From Halorhodospira halochloris (GTDB lineage Bacteria > Pseudomonadota > Gammaproteobacteria > Nitrococcales > Halorhodospiraceae), in NCBI RefSeq assembly GCF_002356555.2, contig NZ_AP017372.2, positions 62,001 through 126,000 on the forward strand: a stretch of 64,000 nucleotides of DNA, read 5' to 3'. Shown here in pieces: positions 3,445-63,019 of the stretch. Position 1 is the stretch's first letter, and each line of letters begins with the position of its first letter. The translations under genes and the position numbers were made by a program. The notes beneath the pieces were generated by a model, which had not been told where the DNA came from, did no database searches, and saw nothing but the letters and a program-made list of their open reading frames with translations.

Positions 3445-3485
3445 GGCTTTCCTAATTGGCTCACAGGACACCTTTAACCCTCCCT

Positions 3486-3593
3486 GAGCCAATGGGCTGC
3501 CCCGGTGTGGAGCACGCCGTCAATCCATCTCTGGAGGCTTCAGTGCGCTATCTCTGGTGCCAAGACCTCCACACCGGGACAGCCCATTGGCTC
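3486..3593. repeat. Palindromic repeat element, copy 1
   Basis: Two 27-nt arms (3486-3512 and 3567-3593) are inverted repeats with one mismatch. The inner part, CCCGGTGTGGAG, is shared with the other copies. The outer part, GAGCCAATGGGCTG, is unique to this copy. The centre (3514-3565, 52 nt) matches the common core in the orientation CGCCGT-AATCCAT-GGAGGCTTCA, with several differences, so it is a drifted copy. A weak likeness to the family terminus (AGGACACCTTTAA) lies at 3465-3477, but I see no matching right end. It lies between the divergent hydrolase and HD-GYP genes, so it is in their promoter region rather than at a gene end. Confidence 0.85.
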
Positions 3594-3699
3594 GGGGGGA
3601 GATTTCGAATGCCTAAAGGGACATTTCACTTCTGGATAATGTTAATGTTACTAGTTAACGGGGGGATTGCTAAGTTGGTTAAGGTTATAGGGGGGCAGA

Positions 3700-26230: not shown

Positions 26231-26409
26231 TGGAAACTCAAAAAAGCCTCCTCAGGCCACTTCCCAGGTCCATCTAGCCACCCCGGTGTGGAGGACGCCG
26301 TGAATCCATACCTAGAGGCTTCATGGCGCCATCCATGGCGCCAAGACCTCCACACGGGGTTAGCTAGATGGACCTGGGAAGTGGCCTGAGGAGGCTTTTA
26401 GCGGTCCTG
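26231..26409. repeat. Palindromic repeat element, copy 2 (long arms)
   Basis: The arms are 26242-26294 and 26347-26399 (53 nt each, three mismatches, with 37 consecutive perfect pairs at the outer end). The outer arm sequence, beginning AAAAGCCTCCTCAGGCC, occurs in no other copy. The inner GGTGTGGAGG and the 52-nt centre (26295-26346) match the family in the same orientation as copy 1. The ends resemble the family terminus GGGAACCTCTAAAA (left TGGAAACTCAAAAA; right complement with five mismatches). Flanking GCTA and CATA are not a clean duplication. It lies between the ArsR and phasin genes. Confidence 0.88.
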
Positions 26410-26971: not shown

Positions 26972-27127
26972 GGTGTTGCTCCTCTTTTGGGATCTGATTG
27001 TGGCGCGCTTTTCGTAGCGTGTTGCGGTGCATCATAGCAGCGTCCATATTGCAATGCAACATCATTTGATAAAAAAAATTGTCGCAACCTAGTTCCCCGC
27101 AATCTTTTTTATGTCACTATATAACTG

Positions 27128-27166
27128 CGGGCTGTGATAGGCCTAATAAGGCAGCAGACCCGCATA
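27128..27166 (+). promoter_or_regulatory. Possible cold-shock 5' untranslated stem upstream of cspA-type gene
   Basis: The 229 bp between the divergent phasin and cold shock genes are AT-rich around 27061-27126. A GCGGG/CCCGC stem with an inner CTG/CAG pairing lies roughly at 27128-27166, then AGAGG leads into the ORF. A structured leader would fit cold-shock control, but no recognised element is certain. Confidence 0.3.
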
Positions 27167-27200
27167 TTCAAGTAAGTGAAACATTAGAGGTTGTTCTAAG

Positions 27201-27410
27201 ATGTCAGAGCGTCAACAAGGTACGGTAAAGTGGTTCGATAATGCTAAGGGCTACGGCTTCATCAGCCGTGATGGGGGTGAAGACGTATTCGTCCACTTCC
27301 GTGCCATCAGGGGTGATGGCTTTCGCTCCCTGGAAGAGGGACAGGCGGTAGAATTCAGTGTCACCCGCAGTGCCAAGGGCCTGCAGGCTGAAGATGTAGC
27401 TGCCGTTTAA
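27201..27410 (+). CDS. Cold shock protein (CspA family)
   Basis: A 69-aa single cold-shock domain. RNP1 is KGYGFISR and RNP2 is VFVHFRAI; the start [17 protein letters not shown] is typical. It binds single-stranded RNA and DNA as an RNA chaperone. The gene is monocistronic: it has its own terminator at 27436 and a long AT-rich upstream region. Confidence 0.96.
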
Positions 27411-27435
27411 GGTAGGTCATCACGGCCGAAACCAG

Positions 27436-27470
27436 AAAAGGGCTCTCCCCAGACGGGGAGGCCCTTTTTT
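27436..27470 (+). terminator. Intrinsic terminator of the cold shock gene
   Basis: AAAGGGC and TCTCCCC pair with GGGGAG and GCCCTTT around an AGAC loop, followed directly by TTTTTT. It lies 26 bp after the stop codon. The A/T-rich base could also work leftward against the envelope locus. Confidence 0.92.
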
Positions 27471-39424: not shown

Positions 39425-39640
39425 TTAGTACGCGCGCTGACGGCGTTGCTGCTCGCGCTGTATGCGCTTCATGTGCCTCTTGATCGCGGCTGCTTGCTTA
39501 CGCTTGCGTACTTGGGTCGGCTTTTCGTAATACTCGCGGCGGCGGATCTCGGAAAGAACTCCGGCCTTTTCACATGAGCGCTTGAATCTGCGCAGCGCAA
39601 CCTCGAATGGCTCGTTCTCGCGTACTTTGACTATCGGCAT
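39425..39640 (-). CDS. rpsU: 30S ribosomal protein S21
   Basis: A 71-aa, highly basic small-subunit protein: [20 protein letters not shown], then [20 protein letters not shown], and a basic tail ending [10 protein letters not shown]. Full match to S21 in length and composition. It leads the operon to yqeY, dnaG and rpoD. The nearest upstream sequence is only about 92 bp before palindromic repeat copy 3, so the promoter must lie in that short interval or within the element. Confidence 0.97.
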
Positions 39641-39723: not shown

Positions 39724-39731
39724 CTCTTTCA

Positions 39732-39883
39732 GGGAACATCTAAAAACTTTGCCGGCGCCACCATCCGCCCCGGTGTGGAGGTCTTGGCGCCAGGGATGGC
39801 GCCATGAAGCCTCCAGGGATGGATTCACGGCGTCCTCCACACCGGGGCGGATGGTGGCGCCGGCAAAGTTTTTAGAGGCACCC
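39732..39883. repeat. Palindromic repeat element, copy 3
   Basis: The arms 39739-39781 and 39834-39876 are a perfect 43-bp inverted repeat around a 52-nt asymmetric centre (39782-39833) containing two TGGCGCCA units 4 bp apart. The ends are GGGAACATCTAAAA and the complement of GGGTGCCTCTAAAA. TTCA occurs immediately outside both ends (39728-39731 and 39884-39887), like a 4-bp target duplication. The right TTCA contains the stop codon of the acyltransferase gene. The orientation is opposite to copies 1 and 2. Confidence 0.93.
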
Positions 39884-39884
39884 T

Positions 39885-40826
39885 TCAGGCGCGCGTCGCT
39901 GTTTTTCTCTTGTTCCGGCGTTTGCCACGGCCAGGATAGGGGCTGTGGCCATCGGGCTGAGTGGCAAAGCGTTTGTAGGTCCACTGGTACTGCTCCGGAG
40001 CTAGCCTAACGCAGGCCTCGACACCGCGATTAACAGCTGCAGCGGCAAGTTGTGGGTCGGGGTTGGCAATGTCAGCATCAGCGGGGATGAAGTGAAGCTC
40101 AAAACCCTTTGCTGCGGGCAACCGTCTAGCGCATGCAAACAGTACGGGGGCTTGCGATTTATAGGCAACGCGGCTGGCCAGAGTCATAGTCTTGGCGGGT
40201 TGGCCGAAGAGCGGGGCAAACGGCTCATTGCCCTCGGGCTCTTGGTCGGGGAGGATGCCGACGCTCTCCCCTGCGTTTAGTGCCTTCATGATCCCCCTGA
40301 TACCCTGTGGGCCGGCCGGCAACATACGCGCGCCATTGCGGGTGCGGCCCTCAAGGAGGATCGGTTCTAGGGAGCGCTGTCGGGGTGGTCGGTAGAGCGC
40401 GGTTAAGGGATGGCGCTCAGCAACCCACAGGTTGAGTAGCTCCCAGCAGCCGTAGTGCGGGGCAAGTAAGATGGTGCCTGTACCATGATCCATTGCGGCC
40501 GTTAGGTGTTCCGCGCCGAAGACATCCACAACCCATCTTCTGGTCAGATGCTGGGGCTGTCTTTTGAATATTGGGCCTATCTCCAGCGCTGTCTTACCTG
40601 TTTCGACTAAGCAGAGCCGCAGCAGTCTGCGTTGCTGGGCAGCGGGTTTAGAGGGGAAGCATAAATTGATATTAGTTGCGGCGATAAGTCGCGCACGATT
40701 GGGTACAATGTAGGCTAGGTGCCCCACTAACCAGCCAAGCATATGCAGCGCGGGCAGAGGCAATAGAGCAAAAAAGGAGAGCAACCCATCTACGCTGCGA
40801 GTTTTCCAGTGTCTAACAGCCATCAC
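39885..40826 (-). CDS. LpxL-type lipid A / lysophospholipid acyltransferase (paralogue 1)
   Basis: A 313-aa inner-membrane acyltransferase of the HtrB/LpxL family that adds a secondary acyl chain to the lipid A precursor. A hydrophobic N-terminus (LLSFFALLPLPALHMLGWLVGHLAYIV) precedes the catalytic H-x4-E in LLAPHYGCWELLN, then YRPPRQRSLEPI, GILPDQEP and PAPVLFACARRL. The usual basic C-terminus (PEQYQWTYKRF) is present. Repeat copy 3 is inserted at its stop codon. A second, diverged family member lies at 63020-63985. Confidence 0.88.
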   Translation of the reverse strand: MMAVRHWKTRSVDGLLSFFALLPLPALHMLGWLVGHLAYIVPNRARLIAATNINLCFPSKPAAQQRRLLRLCLVETGKTALEIGPIFKRQPQHLTRRWVVDVFGAEHLTAAMDHGTGTILLAPHYGCWELLNLWVAERHPLTALYRPPRQRSLEPILLEGRTRNGARMLPAGPQGIRGIMKALNAGESVGILPDQEPEGNEPFAPLFGQPAKTMTLASRVAYKSQAPVLFACARRLPAAKGFELHFIPADADIANPDPQLAAAAVNRGVEACVRLAPEQYQWTYKRFATQPDGHSPYPGRGKRRNKRKTATRA

Positions 40827-62841: not shown

Positions 62842-62860
62842 GGCCTATAGCCTGCCTATT

Positions 62861-63010
62861 GGGTACCTCTAAAACTTCGCCGGCGCCACCATCCGCCCCG
62901 GTGTGGAGGTCTTGGCGCCAGGGATGGCGCCATGAAGCCTCCAGGGATGGATTCACGGCGTCCTCCACACCGGGGCGGATGGTGGCGCCGGCGAAGTTTT
63001 AGAGGTTCCC
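62861..63010. repeat. Palindromic repeat element, copy 4
   Basis: The arms 62861-62909 and 62962-63010 are 49-nt inverted repeats with one mismatch. The 52-nt centre (62910-62961) is identical to copy 3 and in the same orientation. The ends are GGGTACCTCTAAAA and the complement of GGGAACCTCTAAAA. TATT flanks both ends exactly (62857-62860 and 63011-63014). Relative to copy 3 it has one fewer A:T pair and a C:G for T:A pair in the arm, both changed on both sides. It lies between the convergent folK and acyltransferase genes, so it could act as a bidirectional terminator. Confidence 0.93.
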
Positions 63011-63019
63011 TATTGGTGA

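Follow-up and report, generated by a model that had tools for sequence, protein, structure and literature searches.

The 64,000-nt window analysed here (positions 62001-126000 of the Halorhodospira halochloris genome, a single contig of 2,834,560 bases) carries a 152-bp palindrome, copy 3, flanked by rpsU and a lipid A acyltransferase gene, each on the minus strand (Table 1). Its inverted repeat arms are 50 nt long and 94% complementary, it ends in GGG...CCC, and the open reading frames across it are mechanical short frames only, of 95 and 86 aa. A sequence check confirmed the first-pass annotation in that TTCA flanks copy 3 and TATT flanks copy 4 exactly at the GGG...CCC ends. The last three bases of the right-hand TTCA are the acyltransferase stop codon, so the acyltransferase reading frame was left whole. 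The termini of copies 2, 3 and 4 had been fitted to one inverted repeat; copies 3 and 4 do fit it, whereas copy 2 does so only loosely, its ends being degenerate. Copy 2 retains long palindromic arms and has no exact duplication, and copy 1 has neither recognisable ends nor an exact duplication. The window had also been described as devoid of a transposase, a claim that was checked for DDE_Tnp_1, and no such domain was found. Elsewhere in the window, positions 27016-27469 match the Rfam cspA thermoregulator barely over the cut-off (80.4 vs. 78 bits).

Table 1. Element copies and adjoining genes in the 64-kb window (window coordinates).
Feature	Position	Strand	Basis or remark
Copy 1, decayed	3482..3597 (outer limits approximate)	-	core 3515-3549, 5 mismatches
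Copy 2, decayed	26231..26409 (outer limits approximate, by eye)	-	core 26296-26330, 2 mismatches
rpsU (ribosomal protein S21)	39425..39640	-	start codon 91 bp from copy 3
TTCA, left target-site duplication of copy 3	39728..39731	.	sequence; family-wide test
Copy 3, probable MITE, complete, 152 bp	39732..39883	+	sequence and genome pattern search
Left terminal inverted repeat of copy 3, GGGAACATCTAAAA	39732..39745	+	
Two-hairpin core of copy 3	39784..39833	+	conserved, both loops GGGA; common to other genera of the order
Right terminal inverted repeat of copy 3, GGGTGCCTCTAAAA	39870..39883	-	forward-strand letters TTTTAGAGGCACCC
TTCA, right target-site duplication of copy 3	39884..39887	.	
Lipid A acyltransferase gene, htrB/lpxL-like	39885..40826	-	ends at copy 3 insertion
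TATT, left target-site duplication of copy 4	62857..62860	.	
Copy 4, probable MITE, complete, 150 bp	62861..63010	+	between convergent folK-like (HPPK) and acyltransferase genes
TATT, right target-site duplication of copy 4	63011..63014	.	

A 35-base pattern of the element core, allowed up to 3 mismatches, matched the genome 254 times (143 + 111), and its reversed control did not match at all; this amounts to one such hairpin per ~11 kb of the 2.83-Mb genome, a density that matters for annotation. Likewise, a pattern of both termini with zero mismatches recovered 28 elements, and its control none. Within the window, the terminus pattern by itself at 3 mismatches was not above chance (6 matches; shuffle mean 3.26; 11 of 100 shuffles reach 6), and the duplication test was therefore made on whole copies. 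Positions among the matches listed cover 200 of the 254 core matches. Copies were sampled from 461,642 bases that include the window and consist mostly of stretches around copies, counting the core to 6 mismatches and calling a terminus when at least 10 of 12 scored positions match. The sample contains 235 core copies, of which 111 are two-ended, 67 one-ended and 57 without a recognisable end, so that 124 lack one or both. The copies are palindromes of ~150 bp with 14-bp termini (GGKNNCCTCTAAAA); 83 of the 111 two-ended ones measure 150-152 bp, with extremes of 134 and 175 in a smaller set of 226 copies (103 two-ended, 67 one-ended, 56 without ends). Among copies of equal length, the nearest pairs are a single base apart over 150-152. 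Those unpaired termini of the genome that were read belong to MITE copies, halves and truncated copies, with no longer IS among them, and no transposase lies near the remnant at 331397.

Several individual sites are recorded here as observations. Near contig position 723378 (L137), a stretch of ~43 bp has the same ends (GGGAAACTCTAAAA...TTTTAGATGTCCCC) with almost no interior and is perhaps a minimal version. Near 918976 (L135), a half copy runs into an apparent coding sequence, RhuM-like by eye, and some copies may thus have been incorporated into genes. At 1812500-1817500 (L128), a decayed and a truncated copy flank two small genes of 291 and 118 aa; by eye the pair resembles regulators of the STAS/RsbR type, and rearrangement between the flanking copies is possible.

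We examined the flanks of all 111 two-ended copies. An exact 4-bp direct repeat stands at the termini of 66 and is missing in 45. A lack of duplications at other copies had been named in the first pass as evidence against a MITE, and this is not what the copies show. Ten other registers of the same copies gave 0, 0, 0, 1, 0, 0, 0, 1, 4 and 0 exact 4-mers, and re-pairing left and right flanks between copies in 1000 trials gave 1.63 on average and never more than 6. The repeat is present in 33 of 43 perfect-ended copies, and a 5-mer matches on both sides in 1 of 111, indicating that the duplication is 4 bp. Its share is 37/51, 20/34, 5/10 and 4/16 in copies with 0, 1, 2 and at least 3 core mismatches, respectively; the duplication fades with copy age.

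The preceding base is C in 50 of the 66 duplicated copies and the following base is G in 50, giving the target preference C-NNNN-G, in which the first duplicated base is mostly T or A and the last mostly A or G. A 6-bp duplication CNNNNG was considered and rejected: the following base is not G in 16 sites and equals the first base of the element in 1 of these 16. YTAR is the classic target of the IS5 subgroup. It fits only 6 of the 66 duplications, so that the subgroup's target is not the one used here, and IS relatives with like ends are also off YTAR (CATT, TCTA, CGTA, ATAA). We take YTAR to be a habit of the subgroup, not a criterion of the IS5 family.

Copies that jumped into other copies provide empty sites within the genome itself, each with a single 4-mer. 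For 103 copies, the two flanks were joined and matched against every copy, and nine cases were chosen among the matches listed. Seven of the nine have an exact duplication, and when one 4-mer is collapsed the flanks run across the junction into another copy. Among the cleanest are those at 253936 (65 nt ungapped, 89% alike), 311611 (53 nt ungapped, ~72% alike) and 1743578 (one gap, distant from the junction); gaps lie away from the junction at 180727 and 1384202, and small gaps just past it at 958961 and 717543. The other two cases, 594811 and 554922, have no exact duplication. Empty sites that keep both 4-mers had been named in advance as counter-evidence to a MITE; the nested insertions show one 4-mer instead. 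The first-pass check also called for empty sites in relatives, at rpsU among other loci. The acyltransferase-rpsU neighbourhood is kept in relatives, and its spacer, taken between the matched parts, is shorter in 8 of 9 loci, at 114-139 nt vs. 248 nt in H. halochloris; the ninth locus, in a congener (G002), has a spacer of 302 nt without the MITE. The rpsU site thus shows an empty site only roughly, the sequences being too diverged for a base-exact junction.

A DDE transposase of the IS5 type had been suspected from the outset, and an IS with matching ends was to be sought in the genome. One with like ends was found in the congener, where a 2070-bp element on contig C70 (L340) has the ends GGGCACCTCGAAAAACC / GGGAGGCTCGAAAAACT and CATT on both sides, with C before and G after the duplications. 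Its transposase belongs to the IS5 family (NF033581 transpos_IS5_4), the N half scoring 176.6 bits against a cut-off of 140 and the C half 68.4, and the gene is split by an insert with the toxin-antitoxin genes BrnT and BrnA (Pfam). The insert spans ~0.7 kb, about 1780-2500 of L340, and its right border looks attC-like (integron) by eye. The genome of H. halochloris itself yielded only a broken relic, which the C half of this transposase matches at 38.5% over 109 aa, with stops. The relic lies 98 bp from a terminus, GGGAGCCTCTATAAAC, and TATA; its left end was not found, and on the right it abuts a partial IS1634 transposase gene, of which an intact copy reads uninterrupted ACTATAGTCGAC and is alike in 297 of 300 bases from TATA onward. 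The N half found no match in this genome and matched 22 of 115 genomes. Searches with DDE_Tnp_1 and the N half found no intact transposase with MITE-like ends in H. halochloris or in the genus.

The congener also carries small core-less elements of ~79 bp with the same ends; GTAA flanks the copy on contig C59 and also that on C11, which a similarity search brought up. Matches to the 79-bp element outside these two genomes were taken as chance; of the five that were read, L291, L292 and L298 fall within ordinary coding ORFs. Among 54 genomes from the order, the plain terminus pattern was seen in two, those of H. halochloris and the congener. Upstream of the IS1634 gene of H. halochloris (L240:60-140), two inverted end-like matches with 2 and 1 mismatches lie ~80 bp apart; they may mark a small element without the core, of the kind seen in the congener.

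Like ends are found on IS5 elements elsewhere, in support of the affinity first proposed. An element on an Azotobacter salinestris plasmid has GGGCACCTCTAAAAAC at both ends and the flanks CGAG and CGAT, alike in 3 of 4 bases; those of pWW0 and Pandoraea have like ends without a duplication. Four copies were seen in Acidithiobacillus caldus, one in SM-1 with TCTA, one in MTH-04 with CGTA and two without a duplication. The end search found no matching ends on ISAzo41 or a Thauera element. Ten further genome loci gave 4-bp duplications at L346 (ATAA), L349 (TTAA), L351 and L368 (TTAG) and L367 (CTAA), and none was found at L347, L348, L350, L353 and L355; GGGNNCTC-type ends occur in L346 only, and the rest begin GGA. 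Across the 19 IS5-type loci examined, a 4-bp duplication is present in 7, and 12 show none with GG ends. Both a like-ended element with an IS5 transposase gene, albeit a split one, and 4-bp duplications at related IS were thus found.

Another DDE family that makes 4-bp duplications, e.g. IS1380, could have moved the MITE, and candidates reside in the genome. Its DDE_Tnp_1 regions comprise one IS1634, three IS1380-type (one split), one weak and one broken, the relic; leaving the relic aside, the regions over the Pfam cut-off are the IS1634 one and all three of the IS1380 type, the split one of which is under the NCBIfam cut-off. However, the inverted repeats near the IS1380 and IS1634 genes differ from the MITE ends (e.g. 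TCCTGAATCCGTGA at L243), and the loci of those four genes show isolated end-like matches (up to 2 mismatches) but no flanking GGGNNCCTC-like end pair. Matching end pairs (GGGNNCCTCTAAAA ends) sit on IS5 elements. We rejected IS1380 and IS1634 as drivers for want of a flanking pair of matching ends and, from a search that covered DDE_Tnp_1 families, consider a mover from another DDE family very improbable.

The core of the element, its central ~50 nt, consists of two hairpins; other genera of the order have it too, set in palindromes whose arms differ. The 152-bp element matches at least 18 of 59 genomes, its own included, with up to 14 candidate places scored per genome. In the other 17 the match covers the centre only (~positions 46-117 of 152), except in G016, whose two matches are both to a 24-base arm stretch. 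None of 57 core loci of other genomes, several of which end at contig ends, has an IS5-like terminus (up to 1 mismatch, within 120 nt); the 57 loci represent 56 places (L089 = L383). Forty-eight of them passed the alignment score and gave 31 distinct sequences, which with one from H. halochloris make 32. Their stems pair in 94.6% of cells vs. 81.4% in shuffles, and the covariation score is 0.331 vs. 0.090 shuffled, a value reached by 0 of 500 shuffles. Nine of 15 pairs change on both sides (58 cells), cell counts that overstate events, as the rows were chosen by similarity to the core and a small number of genomes supplies many of them. In the second hairpin, three pairs are invariant, and the one adjoining the loop pairs in 20 of 32 only. 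NGGA is the loop sequence in 30 of 32 first hairpins and in all 32 second ones, and the bulge TTCAC is kept in 29 of 32. An Enterobacter plasmid has one weak core match (81% over 48 nt), and viral contigs gave none for the core pattern. Rfam returned nothing over the element at gathering scores, the best match at lax thresholds having 26.6 bits vs. the 70 needed.

The arms were compared in 97 aligned complete copies of 145-158 bp, out of 103. They are complementary within a copy where copies differ, one pair, for example, at 0.90 within vs. 0.46 between copies, and in 342 Watson-Crick arm cells both bases depart from the commonest pair. Positions 4-5 of the ends are unpaired at the outer edge. 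Left and right arm lengths are correlated (Spearman 0.43, n = 111). These paired changes would suit a structured RNA or bidirectional terminator selected at each site, with the 4-mers incidental, as would the very stable fold (z -15) and the covarying stems of a core common to the order. However, the arms contain 95 G-T pairs and 105 A-C mismatches, and this lack of a G-T excess speaks against selection on a one-strand RNA and in favour of the palindrome being maintained in DNA. Nor can such selection yield register-exact 4-bp duplications in 66 of 111 copies or insertions nested in other copies, and a consensus terminator scan at copy 3 gave 0 sites (shuffle mean 1.0). Convergent and divergent gene settings are equally rare, at 3 each among the 31 copies for which both neighbours could be called, a weak argument given that 105 of 226 copies had neither called. 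Site-by-site selection of an RNA or terminator thus has very little chance of being the right account. Mobilisation by a tyrosine (HUH) transposase, as a REP/BIME-like or hairpin element, would be in keeping with the many copies and the palindromic form, but target duplications, present in 66 of 111 copies, are not expected of such elements, and the matching-ended IS has a gene for an IS5 DDE transposase, leaving this the least credible of the alternatives.

Together, short non-coding form, terminal inverted repeats, a duplication of fixed length and empty sites with a single target were all found, and the original MITE reading held when its terminal repeats, 4-bp duplications, non-coding palindrome and IS5 affinity were each tested. 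We conclude, with a probability of roughly 90%, that the family consists of non-autonomous transposable elements (MITE) of the IS5 family. The matching ends suggest that an IS5-type DDE transposase acted in trans on the MITE ends. It would have cut the two target strands 4 bp apart, host repair would then have produced the duplication, and the spread may have stopped or slowed once the transposase decayed.

The likeliest history of this MITE, judging from the sequences compared, is that an older structured repeat, the two-hairpin repeat of the order, became bracketed by IS5-type ends and was then multiplied by them, because the small same-ended elements of the congener lack the core and core copies of other genomes lack these ends. 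What goes beyond a routine MITE is this fusion of IS5-type ends with an older order-wide two-hairpin repeat. A joint account, tentative and rather doubtful when taken whole, would make the core an order-wide DNA repeat of its own kind (NGGA loops, TTCAC bulge, stems and long outer arms variable yet complementary) with its own way of spreading or being kept; IS5-type ends would have been gained in one species only, producing the MITE, and arm complementarity would be kept at the DNA level, by template switching or hairpin-directed repair. DNA-level upkeep is preferred to RNA selection in this account because G-T and A-C mismatches are equally common.

Duplications, a matching IS and empty sites made by the family itself here back a MITE call from one genome, and the likely transposase family is named. 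With the transposon ends separated from the older core, strain comparison can be used to test both the capture of a hairpin by a transposon and the maintenance of long palindromes. A literature search of titles and abstract openings found no description of this MITE family.

Among known systems, the IS5 family (NF033581 transpos_IS5_4; the Azotobacter salinestris plasmid element) shares the ends GGGNNCCTC(T/G)AAAAAC, a 4-bp duplication in part of the related elements and a matching element with a DDE transposase gene. Unlike those elements, the Halorhodospira element is non-coding and ~150 bp long, and its target is C-NNNN-G, not strict YTAR. ERIC is a palindromic MITE of hairpin form with a conserved centre. 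Like the Halorhodospira family, it is a repeated intergenic element of tens to hundreds of copies, 30 to 711 according to PMC10969869; the likeness is one of description, and IS5-type ends and 4-bp duplications set the Halorhodospira family apart. The same paper describes Chunjie of Geobacter uraniireducens and QMITE1/2 of Coxiella burnetii as having full-length copies with terminal repeats and duplications, and many truncated ones (PMC10969869). Full-length copies with repeats and duplications stand beside many truncated ones in H. halochloris as well, a likeness again of description, whereas Chunjie, QMITE1 and QMITE2 measure 235, ~400 and ~190 bp, respectively, as given there.
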